Shown here: positions 8,460 to 58,582 of the stretch, piece by piece
Position numbering within the stretch: the stretch's first letter is position 1
Layout of the letters: every line of letters starts with the position of its first letter
Origin: Actinomycetota bacterium
GTDB taxonomy: Bacteria; Actinomycetota; Actinomycetes; S36-B12; UBA5976
Assembly: GCA_947452765.1 (NCBI GenBank)
Contig: CANGDR010000007.1
Location: forward strand, 1-64,000
DNA: 64,000 nt
Direction: 5' to 3'
Position numbers and translations under genes: made by a program
Notes under the pieces: model-generated
Databases searched by the model: none
Seen by the model: the letters and a program-made list of their open reading frames with translations, nothing else
What the model was told of the DNA's origin: nothing

Positions 8460-9425
8460 TCAGGCCAACAGTGTTGCAACTTCTAAGTAAATCGGAATTC
8501 CAAAAATTAAATTGAATGGAAATGTAACGCCGATGCTGGACATCAGGGCAAGTGATGCGTTCGCAGTTGGCAATCCGATCGACACGGCGGCAGGAGCGGC
8601 GATGTAAGAAGCGCTGGCAGCGAGTACACCAAGGATTGTCGCGCCACCAACACTCATACCGATGGTGTGGCCTGCTATTACAGCTAATGTTCCAACGATT
8701 ACCGGGAATATGATTCCAAATACTGCAACTCTTGGTCCCACCTTCTTAATCTCTGCAAAATTACTGCCCGCTAGATATCCAAGATGCATTAGGAATAGAG
8801 CCAATAGCCCGCCAAGTATCCCGATAAAGAATGGTGAGACTTTTTCGTAACCAGCATCACTTGTGAGTCCGCCAATAACAAGACCGCCGATTAGTAGAAG
8901 CACCGTTTTACCCGTCAAAACTTCAAGCAAAGTTTCTTTCCATTCAACATTTCTATTTAGGTGCCTTGATCCCAAATAGATTCCAACGACAAGCCCAGGT
9001 ATTTCCATCAAGACCAGCAAGACAGTTGCGAAACCTTCAACTTCAATCATTTTGGTTTCTAAAAAAAGCAAGGCCGCTGAAAATGTAATTAGTGAAGTAG
9101 AGCCATAATGTGCAGCAATTGCGCCACGATCTAAGTCAGTTAGCGTTCGCACTAGTTTCAAGACGAAGTACGCAGCCACTGGAACTAGTGATCCAATTAC
9201 TAGCGTCAAGAGTGCTGGGCTGATGATTTCCTGAAACTGGACCGACTTAATTGCATGGCCACCCTTTAGTCCGATTCCAAAGAGTAAATAGATAGACATG
9301 AATTGGTAGATCTGGTCCGGCATTCGCACGTCGCTCTTTACCCGAGCTGCGATACAGCCAAAGACGAAAGCTAATACTGCTACCGATGTGAGGTTTTCTA
9401 GGGCGAGCGACCATGAACTTGACAT
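8460..9425 (-). CDS. Sodium-dependent bicarbonate transporter family (SbtA/DUF897) permease
   Basis: MPDQIYQFMSIYLLFGIGLKGGHAI and ten-TM layout typical of the SbtA family. Confidence 0.8.
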   Translation of the reverse strand: MSSSWSLALENLTSVAVLAFVFGCIAARVKSDVRMPDQIYQFMSIYLLFGIGLKGGHAIKSVQFQEIISPALLTLVIGSLVPVAAYFVLKLVRTLTDLDRGAIAAHYGSTSLITFSAALLFLETKMIEVEGFATVLLVLMEIPGLVVGIYLGSRHLNRNVEWKETLLEVLTGKTVLLLIGGLVIGGLTSDAGYEKVSPFFIGILGGLLALFLMHLGYLAGSNFAEIKKVGPRVAVFGIIFPVIVGTLAVIAGHTIGMSVGGATILGVLAASASYIAAPAAVSIGLPTANASLALMSSIGVTFPFNLIFGIPIYLEVATLLA

Positions 9426-9451
9426 TTAATCTCCTTTATCTGAAGCATAAT

Positions 9452-9471
9452 ACCTGTAATTGAATTCAGGT
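9452..9471. promoter_or_regulatory. Imperfect palindrome ACCTG-N10-CAGGT in the divergent SbtA/HTH promoter region
   Basis: acctgtaattgaattcaggt, just upstream of a TATAAT-like box (9485-9490) and the HTH start at 9497. Confidence 0.45.
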
Positions 9472-9496
9472 GTCAAATTACTGCTATAATCGATTC

Positions 9497-9787
9497 ATGG
9501 TCAAAGAAGTGGCAATCCCCCGCGAGTGGACATTTCTCTCAAATCATGGGCACGTCTTAGTCCACATCAGTCAGGACCCAGAGGCTCGAATTCGGGACAT
9601 TGCCCAAGCTGTCGGAATAACCGAACGAAGCACACATCTGATACTGGCCGATCTGGAAGTGGCTGGCTACCTAACGATCACTCGAGTAGGTAGACGCAAT
9701 ACCTATAAAGTCAATTCGAATTTAAAGTTTCGTCATCCCTCAGAAGCCAGTAAACCTATCGGTTCGCTACTCAAGATTTTTCTGTAG
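9497..9787 (+). CDS. Winged-helix (MarR-like) transcriptional regulator
   Basis: HVLVHISQDPEARIRDIAQAVGITERSTHLILADLEVAGYLTITRVGRRNTY winged-helix pattern. Confidence 0.85.
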   Translation: MVKEVAIPREWTFLSNHGHVLVHISQDPEARIRDIAQAVGITERSTHLILADLEVAGYLTITRVGRRNTYKVNSNLKFRHPSEASKPIGSLLKIFL

Positions 9788-10658
9788 CTAACTTAGTTTT
9801 TAGCCAAGCAAAGCCTTCACTAAGTGCAGGTTCTCCAATAGATAAGTGACCGTGTCCCTCAAGTAGGTTCACGTTGGCATGTGGCAGTTTCTTTGCAAGC
9901 CACTTCCCGTGGTCAAAAGGCACCATTAAGTCAGTAGCTCCCTGCCAAATTGTCACTGGGTTGGAAATATCTGACAACTCAAAACCCCAAGGAAGTACAA
10001 ATGCGATGTCGTCATCTAGCCAACCGTCTACTCCGGTATGCACAGCCCATCGAAAAATCTCTGCCATATTCTCGCCAAATTCGCCAGTAAGTGAATCACG
10101 ATCTTCTTCTGGCAGTAACGAGCCCATCATGTCGACGATTTGTTCACCTGAAATCTTTTGCATTTCAGGTAGTCCGGATTCAAGGTAGCTGCGTAGGTCT
10201 GATTCACCCTTAAGGGCAGCACCAAATTCATCGTGGTTGTCCTGACCCATTCCATTTAGAAAATCTAAATCCAATTGACCAAACATGCCCACACCAGCAA
10301 GAGACATAGCGGCAACGCATCTTTTCGGACTCAGCGCGACATTTGCCAAGGCATGTGGTCCGCCACCAGACCAGCCCATCGTTACGTATAGATCAAAACC
10401 TAAGTGATTTGCAAGCTCATCGACGAGTGTGACGACATCAGCAACGCTTCTGTTAGGTTGCCGAGTTGAGTTACCGTAACCCGGCCTGACCAATTCAACT
10501 ATTCGCAAATCACTCGCGAGTGCAGGCTCAAGTAAATCAGCGTGTAGCGGACCAGCACCAGGTGTTCCATGATGGTAGATCAAAAGGTCAGAGCCCTCTC
10601 CACCATCGAAGTAGTCAACCCGATCCCCGTTTGCACGAATGAAAAATTTGACAGTCAT
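9771..10658 (-). CDS. Alpha/beta hydrolase
   Basis: HHGTPGAG oxyanion motif, GWSGGGPHALA nucleophile elbow, GHGHLS. Confidence 0.9.
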   Translation of the reverse strand: MTVKFFIRANGDRVDYFDGGEGSDLLIYHHGTPGAGPLHADLLEPALASDLRIVELVRPGYGNSTRQPNRSVADVVTLVDELANHLGFDLYVTMGWSGGGPHALANVALSPKRCVAAMSLAGVGMFGQLDLDFLNGMGQDNHDEFGAALKGESDLRSYLESGLPEMQKISGEQIVDMMGSLLPEEDRDSLTGEFGENMAEIFRWAVHTGVDGWLDDDIAFVLPWGFELSDISNPVTIWQGATDLMVPFDHGKWLAKKLPHANVNLLEGHGHLSIGEPALSEGFAWLKTKLATEKS

Positions 10659-11061: not shown

Positions 11062-11085
11062 AGACGAGTCGGTCTGTAAGCCGGA
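11062..11085. repeat. rnpB 3'-end-derived repeat, distal copy
   Basis: agacgagtcggtctgtaagccgga, identical to the rnpB terminus at 20500-20523. Confidence 0.95.
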
Positions 11086-11174
11086 CACTGTTCAAGAGCC
11101 ACTACTTAAATGAAAATTTCGCGGTTTGCCCACATGCTTGCCCACAAAGTCGTACTTGGTTTGCTTCGAAACAG

Positions 11175-11603
11175 CTAATCGCGCACTTCCTGTTCCACTA
11201 CCGCAATTCCAGAAACAACATCCGCTAGTCGCTTGCGGTCTTGCCTGCGCACAATTCCTGAAATGTCCCATAAGTGGAAGCAAAGTAGAAGTGCTATTCC
11301 AAGGCCAAGCAAGATCCCATTTGGGTTGATCGCGTATGCGATGTTTGAAACTGCAAAATACCCAAACCAGTACGCCGTGAAAATCAAGAAGTAACGAATA
11401 AACATCTGAGGACGCTTTGCTGGTGCATTTGTTGTGTCATTGATCGTAACTATTCGCAATAAGTTTTGAGCTGGGGTTTGTCCCCTACCCCAGGTAATCA
11501 AACTCCAAGCAAGCCAACCGATGTAGGCAGTTCCAATGACCAAAACCATTTCTAAAACCCAAGCTGTAAATCGCCTTCTGGGTTGCGCTGGTGTCATGCT
11601 CAT
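11175..11603 (-). CDS. RDD family membrane protein
   Basis: PRRRFTAWVLEMVLVIGTAYIGWLAWSLITWGRGQTPAQNLL...RQDRKRLADVVSG typical RDD pattern. Confidence 0.85.
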   Translation of the reverse strand: MSMTPAQPRRRFTAWVLEMVLVIGTAYIGWLAWSLITWGRGQTPAQNLLRIVTINDTTNAPAKRPQMFIRYFLIFTAYWFGYFAVSNIAYAINPNGILLGLGIALLLCFHLWDISGIVRRQDRKRLADVVSGIAVVEQEVRD

Positions 11604-12535
11604 TTCTTCAGACTCGCTCTCGTTTCTGCGACAACTTCGTTAAGAATCTGATTCCACGGGGTTGGATGCATCCCAAAAGTTTCACGCGCAGCGCTGTCAT
11701 CCAAAATGTACGGACGTTGGAATTGATAGGCGGTCTCTTTTAGAGCCTTCAACAAAGGGTTGAATCGCGCAAGGAGATTCCACATCAGGCTTGGAACTGA
11801 CGAAAGCTTTGGATTCTTAACTCCACCAGCTGCTGCCAGTTCTCTTACAACTTCATTTTGAGTTTTTGCTTCATTACTTGGTACATGCCAAGCCTTACCC
11901 CAAGCCCTTGAATCCGAAGCGACAATCTTCATCAGTCGAGCAACATCTAATGGATAAGTCCAGGTGTGCTTTAGATCGATCGCTCCCAGAACTTGCGCCG
12001 TTTTACCTGCGAGCACCTTCGGCAAGACTCGGGCGCCAACACGACTTTGGTCACTGGCAGATATGTAATCGGAACCTCGAACTTCAGTGGCCTTGATGAT
12101 CCCGGCATCGTGCATGGCCTTTGCTTCGACCCACATGGTCGCTCGAACTTTGCCATTTACTCCTGTTGCATTCAGTGGCAGAGATTCGGTCATTGGAACA
12201 TCAACTGGACCATAGCCATAAAGGTTGGAACAAGTTACTAAGACTGCGCCAGTTTTTTCGGCATAGGCCAGGAAGCTGGCAGCCATTGGCGGCCAAAGCT
12301 TTGCCCACTGGTGATATGGCGGGTTACTGCAGTTGTAGATTGCGACAGCACTTGGAGCCGCAGACAAAAGGCTAGAGACATTGCTGGCATCGGCAGAAAC
12401 TAACTTAATGTTTTCGTGCTTTGGCCCAGAACCCGAACGGGTAGCCAAAATCACCTCTTTGCCATCATTTGCAAGTAACTCAGCTACCGCACTACCGACT
12501 GTGCCTGCACCTACGACCAAATGTATTTCGTTCAT
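11600..12535 (-). CDS. NAD(P)-dependent epimerase/dehydratase-type protein
   Basis: MNEIHLVVGAGTVGSAVAELLANDG Rossmann motif; start chosen at MNEI. Confidence 0.85.
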   Translation of the reverse strand: MNEIHLVVGAGTVGSAVAELLANDGKEVILATRSGSGPKHENIKLVSADASNVSSLLSAAPSAVAIYNCSNPPYHQWAKLWPPMAASFLAYAEKTGAVLVTCSNLYGYGPVDVPMTESLPLNATGVNGKVRATMWVEAKAMHDAGIIKATEVRGSDYISASDQSRVGARVLPKVLAGKTAQVLGAIDLKHTWTYPLDVARLMKIVASDSRAWGKAWHVPSNEAKTQNEVVRELAAAGGVKNPKLSSVPSLMWNLLARFNPLLKALKETAYQFQRPYILDDSAARETFGMHPTPWNQILNEVVAETRASLKK

Positions 12536-12579
12536 GACACGCTCCCCTTGAAATTGACTAAGGCTCACGATAATGGCAC

Positions 12580-12600
12580 AATGTTAACAATGTCAACATT
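12580..12600. promoter_or_regulatory. Inverted repeat (putative TetR operator) overlapping the tetR start codon
   Basis: aatgttaaca-a-tgtcaacatt, 10-bp arms with one mismatch. Confidence 0.65.
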
Positions 12601-13210
12601 AAAAAAATCCGAGTCAGAATTCCATCACGGGGACCTACGGGCCGCCCTTGTGACGGCGGGGCTAAAGCATGTCCAAAAGCATGGCTTGAATTCTTTGGGC
12701 CTTCGACAACTTGCCCTAACTACCGGCGTGAGTCCTACCGCCGTCTATCGCCACTTCGCAGATCTTGAACACCTAAAGGCTGCAATAGCAAGGGCAAGCC
12801 GCGAAGTTTTGGGCACCATGATGCTAGAGGCACTAATAGCCGCTCCTAAAACTCAAACTGCAAAAGGTGCAATCAGCCGCTTTCTTGCAATCGGCGGCGC
12901 CTACATTGATTTTGGAATTAAGGAATCAAACCTTTGCGAAATTGCATTTATCTGCTTTGACTCCCCAACACTGGAACCAGACTCCCCAAATCCATCTGAG
13001 TTATTAATGGCCTCACTCAGTGAATTAAGTGAGATTGGGTGCTTGCCAGATAAGAACCTTAAAACCGCTCCCATGATTGCTTGGAGCATGGTCCATGGGT
13101 TTGCTGGATTGGCTGCCCAAGGCGCTACCGGGAATCCAAAGGAAACTCTTGCATCGAAAAAAGATGTTCTTGCAGCAGCCCTAAAGTCGCTCGACATCAA
13201 AGCTGCTTAA
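12590..13210 (+). CDS. TetR/AcrR family transcriptional regulator
   Basis: N-terminal HTH: LGLRQLALTTGVSPTAVYRHFADLEHLKAAIA; start MSTLKKSE (in-frame ATG also at 12581). Confidence 0.9.
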   Translation: MSTLKKSESEFHHGDLRAALVTAGLKHVQKHGLNSLGLRQLALTTGVSPTAVYRHFADLEHLKAAIARASREVLGTMMLEALIAAPKTQTAKGAISRFLAIGGAYIDFGIKESNLCEIAFICFDSPTLEPDSPNPSELLMASLSELSEIGCLPDKNLKTAPMIAWSMVHGFAGLAAQGATGNPKETLASKKDVLAAALKSLDIKAA

Positions 13211-13214
13211 AGCG

Positions 13215-13252
13215 ACGATCCCGCATCACTGTTTATAGCAATGCGGGATCGT
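13215..13252. terminator. Hairpin between convergent tetR and doxX genes
   Basis: acgatcccgcat...atgcgggatcgt, 12-bp perfect arms. Confidence 0.75.
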
Positions 13253-13267
13253 GTTAACACTTACGGG

Positions 13268-13624
13268 CTAGAGGAAGATCGTGACCAATGCCAACAGGCC
13301 CAAAATTAGTGCAGGGGCAAATGGTTCCTTGCGCTTGCGGTGGACATTAGCTGCGCCGGCCATCAAAAGAAATAGGCAAACTGCCGCAACCTTAGACAGA
13401 ACTTCTGCAACTGAAAAAACGTGCGGCAGGATTAATCCAAGTGCGCCAAGTACTTCAGCAAGCCCAATCATCTTTATCTGAGAATCGCTGAAATCAGCAG
13501 CCCAACCCATGTTCTTGTTTGCAAGCAACTTTTCCCTGCTTGAAGTAACTTTCATCATTCCTGATGCTAAGAATGCAAATGCAGCAATCCCCGCAACAAC
13601 CCAATATGCAGTACTCATATTCAC
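13268..13624 (-). CDS. DoxX family protein
   Basis: Four-TM, FLASGMMKVTSSREKLLANKNMGWAADFSDSQIKMIGLAEVLGALGLILP. Confidence 0.85.
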   Translation of the reverse strand: MNMSTAYWVVAGIAAFAFLASGMMKVTSSREKLLANKNMGWAADFSDSQIKMIGLAEVLGALGLILPHVFSVAEVLSKVAAVCLFLLMAGAANVHRKRKEPFAPALILGLLALVTIFL

Positions 13625-13676
13625 CTATCTCTGATTAGTTTTCCCTGATTCTTGCCTTGAAAGTAATCTTCGCCAT

Positions 13677-13700
13677 AAATGGTTGATTTGTCAACCATTT
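13677..13700. promoter_or_regulatory. Perfect palindrome (putative MarR operator) between doxX and marR
   Basis: aaatggttga-tttg-tcaaccattt, 10-bp perfect arms in a divergent intergenic region. Confidence 0.75.
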
Positions 13701-13714
13701 GATACAGTAATCAT

Positions 13715-14212
13715 ATGGAAACATACGGGCTTTCAGTAAGGCAGCTAAGAGCTTGGCGCTCATTTCACAAGCTGAGGTCGCAATTACTTCCACACATGGC
13801 CAAAAAGATCTACCGAAATACTGGATTAACACCGGCTGAATATTTTCTGATGGTCACCTTGCTGGAATCCCCCAATGGCTCCCTGCATTCCAGCGAAATT
13901 GCAGAGCAACTGGATTGGGAAAAGAGCAGGATTTCGCATCAAGCAAAGCGCATGGAGTCGCGAGGATTAGTTTCTCGGTTTACTTGCGAAACAGATGCCC
14001 GAAGTTGCGTAATAGAAATCACGCCTTCTGGGCGCAAATACATGAAGCAAGCACTTCCCATGCAGTTTCAAGATGTAAAACATTGCTTCGCTGATCTTTT
14101 AACTCAAGCACATCTAGATGCCTTGATTGAAATTTCCCAGATAGTTTCTAAACACCTTGCAGAAGAACATGCGACCGATGACTCTGCTAGGTCACTGGAA
14201 AGTGTGAAATAG
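13715..14212 (+). CDS. MarR family transcriptional regulator
   Basis: LTPAEYFLMVTLLESPNGSLHSSEIAEQLDWEKSRISHQAKRMESRGLVSRF winged helix. Confidence 0.9.
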   Translation: METYGLSVRQLRAWRSFHKLRSQLLPHMAKKIYRNTGLTPAEYFLMVTLLESPNGSLHSSEIAEQLDWEKSRISHQAKRMESRGLVSRFTCETDARSCVIEITPSGRKYMKQALPMQFQDVKHCFADLLTQAHLDALIEISQIVSKHLAEEHATDDSARSLESVK

Positions 14213-14283
14213 AAAGTAAACGATTCGATCTGCGAGCTGGAGTCCGTGGCTGTACCCTGACTGAAAGCAGCTAGGACCCACGG

Positions 14284-15813
14284 ATGAACACTTCTAAGAC
14301 CACACAACGCGAGGCGTTTGCCCTAGGCGTGATTGCCGTCTGCATTGGAATATTTGTTGGCGAATTAACCTCAAACCGATCTTCCGAATGGAAGTCACCG
14401 GTTGACTCACTTGGCAGCTGGATCATCAGCGTAATTCCGCGCTTCCTGGAATCATTCGCTATCAACTTATTCGGCACTCAAGATAAAAGCGTCTTGGTCG
14501 GAATCATCCTGCTGGTTGCGCTTCTGCTGGGTGGATTGGCTGGCGATTTATTGCTGCGAGGAAAAAGCAGAATTGCTTATGCAATCGTGGCACTAGAAAC
14601 CATCTTCGGCGCATTAACTGTAATTGCCCGTCCACATTCCGGCATCTCGGCAGTAGTGCCCGCCTTGCTAAGTGGAATATCAACAGCCTTGGTTCTCTAT
14701 TTTGCTTTGGGGCGAGTAAAGATAGAGACGACTAAAGAGAATCAATCGGCGCAATTAAGTTCTCGACGACAAGTACTAATGTTTGCCGGTGGTGCGGGAG
14801 TCCTTGGCGCGCTGATGCTTATCTCGGGTCAAAAAGTAAAAACCCACGGACTTAACGCAATCAAACGATTAGCAGTCAAGTTGCCAACAGCAACGCAACC
14901 ACTTCCGCCTCCCCCAGTTGACCCCGCACTGCAAATCACTGGCTTATCCCCGCTAATCACCACAAATGATCAGTTCTATCGAATTGATACCGCAATCAAC
15001 ACTCCGATTATTGATGTTGCAGAGTGGTCGCTCACTATCAACGGCATGGTGAAAAATCCAGTCACTTTGAGCTATGCCGACTTACTAAACCGCCCCATGT
15101 TTGAACTAGATGACACCATGTCATGTGTCTCCAATCCAGTTGGCGGAACATTGGTTGGAAATGCGCGCTGGCTTGGATGTCGACTTGATGATTTGATCAA
15201 TGAAGCTGGGTCACTAACTTCAGCCGATCAAATTTTGAGTTCATCAGGCGATGGCTTCGGAGCCGGATTCCCGCTTAATTTATTGGATGGTCGCGATGCG
15301 ATGATCGCTGTTGGCATGAATGGCCAACCCCTTCCGATAGCCCACGGTTTTCCAGCTCGCGTAATAGTTCCTGGCCTGTATGGATACGTATCGGCAACAA
15401 AGTGGCTAACTAACATCGAGTTGACACGTTTCGACGTGAAGCAAGGGTTCTGGATTTCACGTGGTTGGTCTCAACTTGGACCAATAAAGATCCAATCTCG
15501 GATTGATTATCCAACTGATGGCGCCGCCATACCGCACGGAAAATTTACCTTTGCAGGAGTCGCGTGGGCACCACTTTCTGGCATTGATTCAGTACAGGTG
15601 AACATCGATGGAACTTGGAAAGATGCGACTCTTGGTCCAGTTCTTTCCGGAACCACTTGGCGCCAGTGGTGGCTTGATTGGGATCCGACTGCAGGAATGC
15701 ATGAAATTCAAGTCCGTGCGGTCGCAGTTAGCGGTGAGGTGCAGACCCAGGACGTCGCAGACATTGCACCAAACGGTGCATCAGGCTGGCACACCATCAA
15801 GATTTCGGCATAA
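14284..15813 (+). CDS. Molybdopterin-dependent (sulfite oxidase-type) oxidoreductase, membrane-anchored
   Basis: TM-rich N-terminus followed by MSCVSNPVGG...ARWLGCRLDDLI and C-terminal Mo-co dimerisation domain. Confidence 0.9.
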   Translation: MNTSKTTQREAFALGVIAVCIGIFVGELTSNRSSEWKSPVDSLGSWIISVIPRFLESFAINLFGTQDKSVLVGIILLVALLLGGLAGDLLLRGKSRIAYAIVALETIFGALTVIARPHSGISAVVPALLSGISTALVLYFALGRVKIETTKENQSAQLSSRRQVLMFAGGAGVLGALMLISGQKVKTHGLNAIKRLAVKLPTATQPLPPPPVDPALQITGLSPLITTNDQFYRIDTAINTPIIDVAEWSLTINGMVKNPVTLSYADLLNRPMFELDDTMSCVSNPVGGTLVGNARWLGCRLDDLINEAGSLTSADQILSSSGDGFGAGFPLNLLDGRDAMIAVGMNGQPLPIAHGFPARVIVPGLYGYVSATKWLTNIELTRFDVKQGFWISRGWSQLGPIKIQSRIDYPTDGAAIPHGKFTFAGVAWAPLSGIDSVQVNIDGTWKDATLGPVLSGTTWRQWWLDWDPTAGMHEIQVRAVAVSGEVQTQDVADIAPNGASGWHTIKISA

Positions 15814-15830
15814 AAATCAAATCCCAAACC

Positions 15831-16148
15831 TCAACGATTCGAAACTATCCATCTTTTAAATGGTCCACCATTGAATGTATAAACCTTGGCAACACCCCGC
15901 CCGTAGACAGCTGCAAATTCTTTACCATTCTTACGTCGCAAGGTACCCAGCATCACAACTCCCGGTAGACCTGTTCCTGGCGCGCGAAGTCCCCGCAAGC
16001 CATTGGCCTTAAACCAAGGGTTAGGAATGTCCTCGATGGAAACAAGTGAACTTTTAGGTACTCGAAGTGACTTATGAAGTGATCCAATTTTTTCTAGTCG
16101 AGAGAGCTTAAGAACTAACTGGTCACCAATTTCAATTACCTTTGCCAT
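15831..16148 (-). CDS. Hypothetical small protein (possible bacterial PH-like domain)
   Basis: Uninterrupted ORF with good codon use, MAKVIEIGDQLVLKLSRLEKIGSLHKSLRVPKSSLVSIEDI...; weak fold-level impression. Confidence 0.6.
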   Translation of the reverse strand: MAKVIEIGDQLVLKLSRLEKIGSLHKSLRVPKSSLVSIEDIPNPWFKANGLRGLRAPGTGLPGVVMLGTLRRKNGKEFAAVYGRGVAKVYTFNGGPFKRWIVSNR

Positions 16149-16220
16149 ATTTGAGATGCTACTCCGTCTAAAGCAAATCTAAATCGGCAAAAACCCGCCT
16201 TAAACGTAGGGGTTCGCCCT

Positions 16221-16277
16221 ATGAGTTCGCCTCAATACTGCTCTCGAATTGCTAGCCAGTTTCTTTCTGCTAAATAG
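16221..16277 (+). pseudogene. 3'-terminal relic of an SRPBCC cassette gene
   Basis: ctcgaattgctagccagtttctttctgctaaatag aligns to the 3' end of the SRPBCC gene at 18311-18346 with a 1-nt deletion, followed by the same repeat. Confidence 0.65.
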
Positions 16278-16280
16278 TGG

Positions 16281-16305
16281 TAGACGAGTCGGTCTGTAAG
16301 CCGGA
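16281..16305. repeat. rnpB 3'-end-derived repeat
   Basis: tagacgagtcggtctgtaagccgga, identical to 20499-20523. Confidence 0.97.
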
Positions 16306-16372
16306 AGTTCTTGGAATCATTCAAATTTCAAATATGCAAGTTAAGCGAAATAGCCGAAATTCAGAATGCGCC

Positions 16373-16391
16373 CATGTAAAATTTTTACATG
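16373..16391. promoter_or_regulatory. Perfect palindrome CATGTAAAA-T-TTTTACATG ending on a start codon
   Basis: 9-bp perfect arms; the final ATG is the start of the DUF1761 ORF. Confidence 0.55.
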
Positions 16392-16817
16392 ACTTTTTCT
16401 GGACTGAACTTACTCGGCGTATTAATTGCATTCTTTGTCTCATTTATCAGTGGAGCCATCTGGTTTGGGCCCAAGACCTTTTATCCGATTTGGATGAGAG
16501 CCAAGGGAATTCCATCTGGCCAACTCACTACGAGCCAGAACAAACCTGTGGCACTCTTTGGCGGAACCATCGTTGGAGTCTCAATTCAAACTTTCACTGT
16601 CGCTTTAGTTGTGACTTCGCTGGCACATAACAATGCGAATTTTGGAGTGAAAGATGGAGCGCTGGTTGGTTTAGCTCTGGGAGTAGGTATCGCAATGTTT
16701 GCGTCACTATCGCACCGACTATTTGGTGGCGAAAGCTTCAAAGTTTGGATTATTGAAACGGCGAATGATGCGATTAATTTAACAATTGCTGGCGCGATAA
16801 TCACTTACTTCAATTAA
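16389..16817 (+). CDS. DUF1761 family membrane protein
   Basis: FISGAIWFGPKTFYPIWMRAKG motif characteristic of DUF1761. Confidence 0.85.
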   Translation: MTFSGLNLLGVLIAFFVSFISGAIWFGPKTFYPIWMRAKGIPSGQLTTSQNKPVALFGGTIVGVSIQTFTVALVVTSLAHNNANFGVKDGALVGLALGVGIAMFASLSHRLFGGESFKVWIIETANDAINLTIAGAIITYFN

Positions 16818-16833
16818 GAATCTCTCACGATCC

Positions 16834-17400
16834 CTAGATGAGGGTTCTTTTATATTCCTTGCCATTGACATCGTAAGTAATCCACGTTCCGACTTGCTCA
16901 CCGTTCTTGAAACTACCTGAACGCATGATTACGCCAGTTTTCCGAAACCATTTCCAATCACCGTGGAGTTTTCCACTCTTGAACCTCCCTCTAGCTTTCA
17001 AAACTCCATTTTTATAAAACTCAAGATATTCGCCTGTTTTTTTTGGATATAAAGAATTTATCTGAATGATTTTTTCATTGAGAATTTTATTTATGAGTGG
17101 CTTTGGAATACTCATCCCTACTTCAAAATGAACTGACCCCTTGGTTTGCTCGTACTTCCCTAGTTCTTCCTTTAGTCGTGCATTAAACGAACCGCTATAA
17201 GGAAAAATACTGTTGTGGTTTTTGAAACCGTCAAAACCAATGACCGGCACTCCCTCAATCAAAAAAGTCGGAATGCCGTATTTAATAACTTGCTCGGCAG
17301 CTGGAAGTTTGGAAGCTACATGATCGCTTAGATCTGTGAGAATCTTCCTCTGGTTCGGTGGATACTTCTTCAAGTGCGCCGTGACTTGTTGGCTCGTCAT
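16834..17400 (-). CDS. DUF1801-like domain fused to MORN-type/YwqK-like repeats
   Basis: N-term MTSQQVTAHLKKYPPNQRKILTDLSDHVASKLPAAEQVIKYGIPTF (DUF1801); C-term GEYLEFYKNGVLKARGRFKSGKLHGDWKWFRKTGVIMRSGSFKNGEQVGTWITYD. Confidence 0.8.
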   Translation of the reverse strand: MTSQQVTAHLKKYPPNQRKILTDLSDHVASKLPAAEQVIKYGIPTFLIEGVPVIGFDGFKNHNSIFPYSGSFNARLKEELGKYEQTKGSVHFEVGMSIPKPLINKILNEKIIQINSLYPKKTGEYLEFYKNGVLKARGRFKSGKLHGDWKWFRKTGVIMRSGSFKNGEQVGTWITYDVNGKEYKRTLI

Positions 17401-17441
17401 GAATAAATGCTACTAATCTTATTAATGACTCTGTCAATCAC

Positions 17442-17774
17442 TTAAAGGTTTTTATCGGCCCAAATGCAGACGGCATCGTAATGATACTTACCAAGCCCCT
17501 TGGCGACTTCTTCATAACTTTCCCTGTATGGCGAAGGAAGGATGTAAGTCATCGCAAGAGATTTATATGCTTCTTTGTTTGGAGTCCAGAATTGAAGTAT
17601 GAAATCATAATGTTTCGCAGCAAGATCCTGCACGCTCGCATCCCCTGGTGAAACGCCCTCTGCCATTTTGGTCGCAAACTCAGACGTTAAGTCACCGAAG
17701 ACTTGAGTGAACTTCTGCACTTCTTCTCTTGAATGCTCATTCTGGTATTGCTCCGAATGGATGCCAAATTTCAT
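17442..17774 (-). CDS. TipAS antibiotic-recognition-domain-like protein
   Basis: QYQNEHSREEVQKFTQVFGDLTSEFATKMAEGVSPGDASVQDLAAKHYDFILQFWTPNKEAYKSLAMTYILP; lacks a MerR domain. Confidence 0.75.
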   Translation of the reverse strand: MKFGIHSEQYQNEHSREEVQKFTQVFGDLTSEFATKMAEGVSPGDASVQDLAAKHYDFILQFWTPNKEAYKSLAMTYILPSPYRESYEEVAKGLGKYHYDAVCIWADKNL

Positions 17775-17800
17775 AACACTATATTAATCCATGCCCACAA

Positions 17801-17824
17801 AGGCGAGTCAGTCTGGAAACAGCA
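17801..17824. repeat. Degenerate rnpB 3'-end-derived repeat
   Basis: aggcgagtcagtctggaaacagca, partial match to the consensus at the expected cassette boundary. Confidence 0.6.
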
Positions 17825-17875
17825 AACTTGCTTATGTCTTTGCTCCAGATCCGGTTGGCTTGTTATAGTTTTTTT

Positions 17876-18346
17876 GTGACTCAGCCGTTTCTTTATTCAG
17901 TCGAGCGTGAATATCCCGTTTCTGTTGATCGGCTATGGCGCGCTTGGACAGTTGCAGCGGAACTAGAAGATTGGTACCACCCAACTGATCTGCGGGCTGT
18001 TAAAGGTGCAACAGCATCTGAATTAATTGTTGGCGGACTTTGGAGTTGTGGAGTTGATGTGCCAGCTCATAATTTCGCCGCTTACTTCTTTGGTCAGTAT
18101 ACGAAAATTGTGCAAAATGAATTGTTAGAGCACACCATGCACTACACAGAATCATTTGAAGAGTTTGCAGCCAAGGACTTTACGTCACCTTCGCACCTTG
18201 TTGTACTTGAATTTCAAGCTCGAGAAGAAGGTGCCTGGGTGAAATTCAGTCAATTTGGTGAACTACCGGAGGGTCAGGAAAAGCAAGCCCAAGAGGGTAT
18301 GACTAGTTACCTCGAATCGCTAGCCAGTTTTCTATCTGCAAACTAG
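17876..18346 (+). CDS. SRPBCC / AHSA1-like domain protein
   Basis: VEREYPVSVDRLWRAWTVAAELEDWYHPTDLRAVKG; GTG start within the longer ORF. Confidence 0.85.
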   Translation: MTQPFLYSVEREYPVSVDRLWRAWTVAAELEDWYHPTDLRAVKGATASELIVGGLWSCGVDVPAHNFAAYFFGQYTKIVQNELLEHTMHYTESFEEFAAKDFTSPSHLVVLEFQAREEGAWVKFSQFGELPEGQEKQAQEGMTSYLESLASFLSAN

Positions 18347-18710
18347 GGGTAGACGAGTCGGTCTGTATGCCAGATCTAAGTATCTTTTCGATCGGACGTC
18401 CTTTGGCAAGCTCGTCAACCAACTTGTCCATGTAACGAATTTTCTTCATCAATGGGTCTTCAATTTCAACAATTTTCACACCGCAAATAGAACCTGTAAT
18501 TAGTTTTGCATTTGGATTAATTTTTGCGGCCTTAAAGAAATCCCTAAATGTTGTCTTCTTCTTTAGGTGACTCTTTAAGGTCCTTGAGTCAAAACCTGTT
18601 AGCCACGTAATTACCTCGACGAGTTCCGCTTCTGTGCGATCTTTGCGCTCAACTTTATTTACATAATGAACGTAGACATCAGCTACCGGCACTTCAAATA
18701 TCTTGTGCAT
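18303..18710 (-). CDS. DUF2200 family protein; C-terminus reads through a repeat junction
   Basis: MHKIFEVPVADVYVHYVNKVERKDRTEAELVEVITWLTGFD (DUF2200). The last ~24 aa are encoded by the repeat and the antisense of the SRPBCC 3' end. Confidence 0.85.
   Translation of the reverse strand: MHKIFEVPVADVYVHYVNKVERKDRTEAELVEVITWLTGFDSRTLKSHLKKKTTFRDFFKAAKINPNAKLITGSICGVKIVEIEDPLMKKIRYMDKLVDELAKGRPIEKILRSGIQTDSSTPSLQIENWLAIRGN
18350..18374. repeat. rnpB 3'-end-derived repeat
   Basis: tagacgagtcggtctgtatgccaga, 2 differences from the rnpB end. Confidence 0.95.
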
Positions 18711-18730
18711 ACCAAAATCCTAATTGAAAG

Positions 18731-18755
18731 TAGACGAGTCAGTCTGTAAGTCGGA
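18731..18755. repeat. rnpB 3'-end-derived repeat
   Basis: tagacgagtcagtctgtaagtcgga, 2 differences. Confidence 0.95.
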
Positions 18756-18786
18756 TGAAGTTTAATCCAAAAGAACCTTTGTATTT

Positions 18787-19248
18787 TTAATCTTTCAGTC
18801 CTGAACTAATTTGTTCCGCGTGCTCAATCGGATGATTGATGTAGGTCTTAAGCCAGGTCTCCAATGTGTACTCACCTGACTCTGTGTGAATGCCTGCATT
18901 TTTGAGTTGTTCTTTCGCGAGCCTCTTAAGTATTTCTAGAGACGAGGCGCGTACAGCGCTGAAAACTGCGAGTGAAATTTCAATTGGAAGAACTTTGTAT
19001 CCCAATGTTTCGTTCTCTCCCCATCCAGCTTCGTCATAGCCCTGGATTTGTGTACCGGGTTCTGCAATCAACCGGCGGAGTCTCGCGTAGGACTGAGCTT
19101 CGCTATCCGCAACGTGATGGACAACTTGCCTGGCATTCCATGAGTCATTTTGAGGCATATCTAAGTCAACGTCGGTTAACTTAGCCGCAACAGCAAGAAA
19201 GATCTCGGTCGCTTTGTTATATTCTTCAATCGCGTCTCGTAGTTCCAT
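18787..19248 (-). CDS. DinB family protein
   Basis: MELRDAIEEYNKATEIFLAVAAKLTDVDLDMPQNDSWNARQVVHHVADSEAQSYARLRRLIAE...YINHPIEHAEQI. Confidence 0.85.
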   Translation of the reverse strand: MELRDAIEEYNKATEIFLAVAAKLTDVDLDMPQNDSWNARQVVHHVADSEAQSYARLRRLIAEPGTQIQGYDEAGWGENETLGYKVLPIEISLAVFSAVRASSLEILKRLAKEQLKNAGIHTESGEYTLETWLKTYINHPIEHAEQISSGLKD

Positions 19249-19277
19249 AATTAACTTTAGCAATCCGCGGTGAAAAG

Positions 19278-19302
19278 TAGACGAGTCGGTCTGTAAGCCG
19301 GG
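19278..19302. repeat. rnpB 3'-end-derived repeat
   Basis: tagacgagtcggtctgtaagccggg, 1 difference. Confidence 0.96.
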
Positions 19303-19382
19303 TTCATCAGCATTAAGCTCTGGCGAAAATCACTTTGATAAGATTTTGTAATTCTATTTAAGACTTTTTTGGAGCCTAAAAA

Positions 19383-20489
19383 ATGCGGTTTGAACCATTC
19401 GAGTTGGAACGTTACTTTGCGAAATATGAGTTTTCCGCGAAGTATTTGCTTTCAAGTTCAGACTGTGACGGGTTGCTACAAAGTGATGTCCTGGACCTCG
19501 CGGACGCACAATCCCGCGAATTGTGGGACAACCTAACACTTGGATACACCGAATCTGGTGGCCATCCGCTGCTAAAGAATGAGATTGCCAAGATGTATCA
19601 AGGCATTACATCTGATGACATTTTGACAGTTGTGCCTGAGGAAGGCATTTACCTTGCCCTGAACTGCATCCTGAAAAGTGGCGACCACGTGATTTGTACT
19701 TTCCCTGGATACCAATCACTTTATGAAATTGCTGAAGGCATTGGCTGCGAAGTGACGAAGTGGGAACTGGATGAAGCCCGAGGTTGGGCGCTTGATCTGG
19801 ATTTCTTAAAATCACAGATCAAATCCAACACCAAACTTCTTGTGGTGAACTTCCCGCATAATCCAACGGGTTATACGCCAACTTTGCTTGAGTTCCAAGA
19901 AATCATGGACATCGCTCGAGAACACAATATTTTCGTTTTGTCTGACGAGATGTATCGCTACATGGAATTTGATGCCGCAGATCGGCTCCCCTCGGCATGC
20001 GAAGTTTATGAAAATGCCGTATCCCTATTTGGAGTTTCCAAAGCGCTTGGTCTTGCTGGGCTACGAGTTGGTTGGGTCACCACAAGAAACAAAGAACTTC
20101 TTTCGCGCATGGTTACGTACAAAGATTTCACAACGATTTGCGGAAGTGCACCAAGTGAAATCTTGGCCTTGATTGCGCTGCGAAATAGCGAGTTAATTGT
20201 CTCCAGAAACTTAGACACAATTAGAACAAATCTTGGCCTTTTAGAAACCTTCTTTGAAGGTCAGGACCTTTTCTCCTGGATTAAGCCTCGCGCAGGATCA
20301 ATTGCATTTCCGCGGATAAATGGCAATCGAAGCTCATTGGCTTTTTGCGAAACCCTAGTTGCTGAAACTGGAATCATGTTGTTGCCGTCAACCGTGTATG
20401 GATATGGCGACAACCATTTCAGGCTTGGCTTTGGCAGAAAAAATATGCCTGAAGTACTTGATAGGTTTTTCGAGTATTTAAAAGCATAG
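19383..20489 (+). CDS. Class I/II PLP-dependent aminotransferase
   Basis: NFPHNPTGYTPT, SDEMYRYMEF, SLFGVSKALGLAGLRVGW (PLP lysine). Confidence 0.92.
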   Translation: MRFEPFELERYFAKYEFSAKYLLSSSDCDGLLQSDVLDLADAQSRELWDNLTLGYTESGGHPLLKNEIAKMYQGITSDDILTVVPEEGIYLALNCILKSGDHVICTFPGYQSLYEIAEGIGCEVTKWELDEARGWALDLDFLKSQIKSNTKLLVVNFPHNPTGYTPTLLEFQEIMDIAREHNIFVLSDEMYRYMEFDAADRLPSACEVYENAVSLFGVSKALGLAGLRVGWVTTRNKELLSRMVTYKDFTTICGSAPSEILALIALRNSELIVSRNLDTIRTNLGLLETFFEGQDLFSWIKPRAGSIAFPRINGNRSSLAFCETLVAETGIMLLPSTVYGYGDNHFRLGFGRKNMPEVLDRFFEYLKA

Positions 20490-20498
20490 GCGTTTAAT

Positions 20499-20523
20499 TA
20501 GACGAGTCGGTCTGTAAGCCGGA
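20499..20523. repeat. Native rnpB 3' end, parent of the dispersed repeats
   Basis: tagacgagtcggtctgtaagccgga, continuous with the rnpB body (ttctgta...). Confidence 0.95.
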
Positions 20524-20846
20524 TTCTGTACGCTTGCGCGCGATGATCATCCATCTGCGATTGTTGTTACCAACAACCTGTTGCAACCTACCTGCAGGCT
20601 AGTGACGGGCAGTCACCTGCGTCTTGGTCTTGCTCCGAGTGGGGTTTACCTAGCTACCTATGTCGCCATAAGTACTGGTGAGCTCTTACCTCACCGTTTC
20701 ACCCTTACCTATTGCTAGGCGGTTTACTTTCTGTTGCACTTTCCCGTGGGTCACCCCAGGTGGACGTTATCCACCACTCTTGCCCTATGGAGTCCGGACT
20801 TTCCTCGAGCATTGCTGCCCGCGATCATCCGACCGACTCGTCTACC
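20499..20846 (-). ncRNA. rnpB: RNase P RNA (type A)
   Basis: Minus strand contains GAGGAAAGTCCGGACTCCATAGGGCA near the 5' end; termini TAGACGAGTCGGTC / GACCGACTCGTCTA form P1. Ends approximate. Confidence 0.95.
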
Positions 20847-58505: not shown

Positions 58506-58579
58506 GGGGCGGTAGCTCAGTTGGTCAGAGCATCGGACTCATAATCCGTGGGTCGTGGGTTCGAGCCCCACCCGCCCCA
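58506..58579 (+). tRNA. tRNA with CAT anticodon (Met or Ile2)
   Basis: ggggcggtagctcagttggtcagagcatcggactcataatccgtgggtcgtgggttcgagccccacccgcccca cloverleaf. Confidence 0.93.
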
Positions 58580-58582
58580 CCG

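Follow-up and report, generated by a model that had tools for sequence, protein, structure and literature searches.

A truncated SRPBCC gene end in a probable cassette island anchored on rnpB in an Actinomycetota bacterium

How did a short stretch resembling the end of an SRPBCC gene come to lie beside a repeat copy away from that gene, and what is the repeat? The question arises from a sequence-only reading of a 64,000-nt stretch of an Actinomycetota draft genome (contig CANGDR010000007.1, positions 1 to 64,000; here called the window), which proposed that a related SRPBCC cassette had once ended at this repeat and that most of it is gone. Our analysis makes it probable that the locus is an additive island of cassettes anchored on rnpB, and that the relic is what a large deletion left of an SRPBCC cassette.

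The repeat is the 3′ end of rnpB

The repeat core is identical to the final 24 nt (20500-20523) of an intact RNase P RNA gene, and this identity explains the one-sided, one-orientation arrangement of the copies as well as the target of the cassettes. The sequence-only reading had placed a repeat at 16281; a copy does abut the relic there, but its core spans 16282-16305, and its nature as an rnpB 3′ end had gone unrecognised. The window holds six clear copies, the rnpB end included, in a single orientation, with zero expected by chance. Counting two decayed copies the total is eight, of which the seven beyond rnpB all lie downstream in the same orientation and divide approximately 9.4 kb into cassettes. 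From rnpB outwards, the features are as follows (strand given for stranded features; G numbers denote genomes).

20499-20840, minus: rnpB, intact class A RNase P RNA (RF00010, 304.6 bits, Rfam)
19303-20499: cassette 1, PLP-dependent aminotransferase gene (19383-20489, plus; PF00155); a 94% identical cassette in G001 and G017
19279-19302, minus: rnpB 3′-end copy, 1 mismatch
18756-19278: cassette 2, DinB-superfamily gene (18787-19263, minus; PF12867); an 85% identical cassette in G004
18732-18755, minus: rnpB 3′-end copy, 2 mismatches
18375-18731: cassette 3, DUF2200 gene (from 18710, minus; PF09966), its frame continuing through the next repeat
18351-18374, minus: rnpB 3′-end copy, 2 mismatches, abutting the end of the intact SRPBCC gene
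17825-18350: cassette 4, intact SRPBCC/AHSA1 gene (about 17876-18346, plus; PF08327), the intact counterpart of the relic
17801-17824, minus: decayed rnpB 3′-end copy, 6 mismatches, intergenic
16306-17800: cassette 5, DUF1761 (plus), DUF1801/MORN (minus) and TipAS (minus) genes, from family search
16282-16305, minus: perfect rnpB 3′-end copy (0 of 24 mismatches), attached to the relic
16243-16281, plus: relic, 3′ end of a second SRPBCC gene, 1 nt deleted, contiguous with the repeat
14242-16281: cassette 6, molybdopterin oxidoreductase-like gene (14284-15813, plus), 105-aa ORF (15831-16148, minus) and the relic
14218-14241, minus: decayed rnpB 3′-end copy, 6 mismatches, intergenic
11086-14217: cassette 7, five genes (11175-14212), the distal part common to G020 at 84%
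11062-11085, minus: outermost rnpB 3′-end copy, perfect, followed by a YciI-like gene

The SRPBCC/AHSA1 assignment of the intact gene is clear (PF08327, 47.9 bits against a Pfam gathering cut-off of 22.1), whereas NCBIfam sulfite dehydrogenase models match the oxidoreductase-like gene of cassette 6 below their cut-off, and the MarR-, DoxX-, TetR-, epimerase- and RDD-like genes of cassette 7 were assigned by reading the ORFs rather than by family search. We also observed that the DUF2200 frame (18303-18710, minus) crosses the repeat at 18351 into the antisense of the SRPBCC gene, and that its native C-terminus, as found in G020 (ILRVEVK*), is replaced by the repeat in the window.

Across 207 kb downstream of rnpB in 19 genomes of the genus, a search allowing up to 6 mismatches returned 25 sense matches, none in antisense and none in the reversed control, and in G015 a decayed copy sits exactly at the end of a cassette homologous to the ASCH cassette of G011. 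Given these sense-only counts and this boundary, the decayed sites are credible cassette boundaries, and the intact SRPBCC gene is a one-gene cassette of 526 nt. Outside the window, the 1.60-Mb draft genome (46 contigs) contained no copy of the repeat.

A relic homologous to an SRPBCC gene end

Local alignment of 16243-16281 with 18311-18350 gave 34 of 40 identical positions, five substitutions and one 1-nt gap, in agreement with the 1-nt deletion and few substitutions first described. The score was 48, and 1000 dinucleotide shuffles gave 32 at best; across the 9.5-kb array shuffled versions of the relic scored no more than 28, and in the rest of the window the relic itself reached 29 at best. 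The similarity is thus real, and the concern that it might be at chance level outside the repeat, which the sequence-only reading had itself raised, was tested and fell to the 40 nt exceeding every shuffle. That chance or an assembly artefact produced the resemblance has a negligible probability: the window does come from a fragmented draft of 46 contigs, yet no shuffle reached the observed score, and equivalent arrays with the very same cassettes are present in independent assemblies. The stretch originally claimed, 16221-16305, was nevertheless too long, with the 22 nt preceding 16243 carrying no similarity. Neither DNA alignment nor three-frame protein alignment to SRPBCC gave a signal upstream of 16243, and SRPBCC/AHSA1 homology of the relic was found for the last 12 codons and not beyond them.

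The intact gene ends in CTC GAA TCG CTA GCC AGT TTT CTA TCT GCA AAC TAG (LESLASFLSAN*), and the relic follows the same frame until a lost T, with CTT TCT GCT AAA TAG as its final codons, so that a coding frame (LELLASF/FLSAK*) is preserved on both sides of the 1-nt slip and up to the stop. Because three of the four coding substitutions fall on third codon positions, the relic had probably been evolving as a gene until it broke, a reading drawn from few sites. Within cassette 6 it occupies the end nearer rnpB; its offset to the repeat equals that of the intact SRPBCC gene, and both run straight into the repeat. The frame kept around the slip argues for the remnant of a second SRPBCC gene and against a recombination arm shared by the cassettes, and the comparison of the two stretches supports a frameshifted 3′ stump of such a gene joined to a repeat copy. 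To that extent the proposal of a lost SRPBCC cassette stands, a stump being present at the same repeat offset, and a whole cassette may once have sat at this place.

That the 40 nt are instead a functional arm of an attachment site common to the cassettes is very improbable. They directly abut the core in both places, as such an arm would, but are absent at all other repeat copies in the genus, as seen in a matrix of 820 pairs of 80-nt flanks at rnpB-repeat copies, in which the shuffled maximum was 22 and the relic pair scored 48. All pairs scoring above the relic pair were homologous cassettes or loci, as were nearly all other strong matches (homologous cassettes); one pair, G007#1 with L049#1, reached the same score as the relic pair, its common stretch beginning about 36 nt off the core. 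The matrix led us to reject a general attachment-arm reading. Moreover, in the intact copy these nucleotides encode the C-terminus of a protein whose family members elsewhere end alike without a repeat: SRPBCC homologues with 48-61% identity occur in seven genomes of the genus, all on other contigs, and they close with similar residues (SLANFLSK, SLADFLK) and no repeat behind them, which identifies the 40 nt as gene sequence and not as a recombination arm.

If a single SRPBCC cassette had been duplicated locally in tandem and one of the copies then largely lost, two SRPBCC copies would stand in one array at the same offset to the repeat, as they do. We regard such a duplication as quite unlikely, since the copies differ by approximately 15% over 40 nt, for the most part at third codon positions, which suggests separately evolved alleles, and nothing else is common to the two units. 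The suggestion of a local duplication as the origin of both copies was accordingly not upheld, the divergence being enough for separate acquisitions. The simplest history is an SRPBCC cassette reduced by deletion to its repeat-proximal stump; a relic arising from a crossover inside a different SRPBCC cassette is also possible.

Cassette exchange between species

Named contigs with the same core belong to Actinomycetota MAGs, which their titles place largely in lakes and reservoirs. Distal copies of the rnpB end (up to 2 mismatches) were found in 11 of 21 same-genus genomes, our own included, the 21 being those with a contig that continues beyond rnpB for at least about 1 kb. In other genera of the same family and order, rnpB itself was found and no distal copies. 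Within the genus the anchor is the same and the cassette layout downstream of it varies: cassettes correspond over their full repeat-to-repeat length beside changing neighbours, and some occupy other slots. The aminotransferase cassette adjoins rnpB in G001 and G017 as it does in the window, the DinB cassette takes the second slot in the window and the first, directly beside rnpB, in G004, the ASCH cassettes of G011 and G015 start at the same base after the repeat, and the YciI gene past the last repeat of the window is a bounded cassette in G003. This recurrence of whole cassettes bears out the proposal that gene-plus-repeat units move as modules. A full SRPBCC gene at the position of the relic was expected in relatives and none was found on searching, nor did a search of the relatives reveal the relic junction or its neighbour genes in place.

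The cassettes are mostly 85-99% identical at the DNA level, compared with 76-84% for the housekeeping gene aceE, and exceed aceE in four species pairs. For the aminotransferase cassette, identity is 99.2% in the pair G001 and G017 (aceE 83.8%) and 94.2% between the window and G001 (aceE 80-83%), for the DinB cassette 85% between the window and G004 (aceE 78.6%), and for the ASCH cassette 86% between G011 and G015 (aceE 76%); the YciI gene, at 80.5% between the window and G003 against 76.5% for aceE, is less telling. Because cassette identity mostly exceeds that of aceE, the comparison indicates that cassettes travel between species. In G011, the outermost rnpB-end copy (L046, oriented position 2034, G011:C72) equals the rnpB end of G035, a member of a different genus, over 28 nt, which suggests transfer between genera as well.

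Insertion at RNA-gene ends and relation to known systems

Site-specific integration at RNA genes is well established from tyrosine integrases that target tRNA genes. Repeats whose identity is confined to the RNA gene's 3′ terminus, which run in one direction and leave rnpB intact, are the anatomy that such integration would give. Under the reading we favour, cassettes of one to five genes, each with a 24-nt copy of the rnpB 3′ end, would insert at the end of rnpB; with each insertion the gene would be restored from the copy on the cassette and the old rnpB end left as the distal boundary, so that repeated insertions would build a series of same-orientation repeats decaying with time. Two different SRPBCC cassettes may have entered the island in this way, of which one survives (17825-18350), and in the other a deletion ending at 16243 would have spared about the last 12 codons beside the repeat; the 1-nt slip may have broken the frame before or after that deletion. 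The order of these events at the relic is our reconstruction, as is the involvement of a tyrosine recombinase that acts in trans and recombines site-specifically. Two perfect repeats, at 16282 and 11062, are farther out than decayed copies, and strict insertion at rnpB alone is therefore too simple; this arrangement suggests insertion or refreshment away from rnpB too, or blocks of cassettes that move together.

Homologous, RecA-type recombination could also bring in cargo with an rnpB end, through crossing over in rnpB or in an older repeat; the relic would then be the trace of a crossover or conversion tract adjoining the repeat. The arrays have no linked integrase, and longer segments, namely a decayed, nearly full-length second rnpB in G019 and an 81-nt rnpB stretch in G013, are what crossovers at points farther upstream in the gene would produce. 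Nearly all distal copies, however, share just 24-28 nt with rnpB, a very small tract for homologous recombination, and their boundary does not scatter along the gene but stays constant; we consider this route unlikely. The second rnpB of G019 (L052 2979-3343, G019:C14:20538-20902; 30.6 bits) lies 3 kb downstream of the intact gene and shows that longer rnpB segments can be duplicated as well.

No tyrosine recombinase (PF00589) was found next to the arrays on the rnpB contigs of 23 genus genomes, no serine recombinase was found in the genus, and exact and degenerate searches of viral contigs did not return the core. The genome under study encodes two tyrosine recombinases, of XerC and XerD type. 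An integron-like exchange at rnpB, in which recombinase-less cassettes are gained and lost at the 24-nt end and at inner repeats too, through host XerC/XerD or the enzyme of a passing element, is a tentative proposal that we hold to be possible though doubtful; if true, it would give streamlined bacteria an interspecies pool of single genes. Longer tyrosine recombinases (383 and 374 aa) are encoded in G007 (G007:C102:1451-1984 and 8465-9955) and G015 (G015:C45:33268-33762; L161) and are candidate trans-acting enzymes. The G007 enzyme shares its contig with a homologue of the cassette 6 oxidoreductase, and that of G015 lies near a tRNA-Lys.

A second repeat island is found in the genus at tRNA-Met(CAT). 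In G014 (L213, G014:C6:57500-70000) and G016 (L214, G016:C3:636500-646500) three copies of the 3′ end, consisting of the last approximately 42 nt, come after an intact tRNA, and 3′-end fragments of this tRNA recur in G004 (L215, G004:C25), G005 (L155, G005:C5) and G020. The tRNA-Met(CAT) of the window (58506-58581) has no extra copy. G005 (L155 4269-4328) and G010 (L045 387-465) each have a tRNA 3′ end that is oriented opposite to an rnpB end and separated from it by 11 nt; the neighbouring tRNA sequences differ between the two genomes, that of G005 being the tRNA-Met end, and in G010 the first rnpB cassette opens with the tRNA 3′ end. The two anchors may share traffic.

Among known systems, integrons are likewise rows of mostly one-gene cassettes at one anchor, each with its own recombination site, but differ in that here gene orientation is mixed and the sites are rnpB ends. 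The tyrosine recombinases of the genome under study score best as XerC/XerD and far below integron-integrase cut-offs, and no integron integrase was found among them. Tycheposons, elements of 4-200 kb in Prochlorococcus and Methylophilaceae (PMC10872708), similarly carry cargo bounded by RNA-gene ends, and the genus also has tRNA-Met(CAT) arrays; unlike them, the rnpB arrays have no tyrosine recombinase and their units are far smaller. In the open papers searched, rnpB is unreported as an integration anchor, an absence that is weak evidence given that most subscription papers were not covered.

The closest likeness is to additive flexible genomic islands, described in 'Ca. Actinomarinales' (PMC7771536), and to island fGI-2 of 'Ca. 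Methylopumilus' (PMC10872708), both made of cassettes or variable segments marked by tRNA-end repeats. Here as there, small variable cassettes stand in series at an RNA gene, bounded by repeats of its 3′ end in one orientation, their content varies at one anchor, and they are exchanged horizontally between related species of streamlined aquatic bacteria; the differences are the anchor, which is rnpB instead of a tRNA gene, and the many single-gene cassettes. The rnpB island thus works like the published tRNA-gene islands, as a variant with another anchor. On its own, the relic is a small, ordinary trace of cassette loss, and it is the surrounding island that deserves the attention. RNA-gene-anchored cassette islands are one route of gene exchange in streamlined aquatic bacteria, and with an island at the RNase P RNA gene, which is essential and single-copy, the tRNA-gene rule reaches another RNA. 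The small bounded cassettes, decaying repeats and stumps of this island allow gains, swaps and losses to be traced with no more than the sequence.
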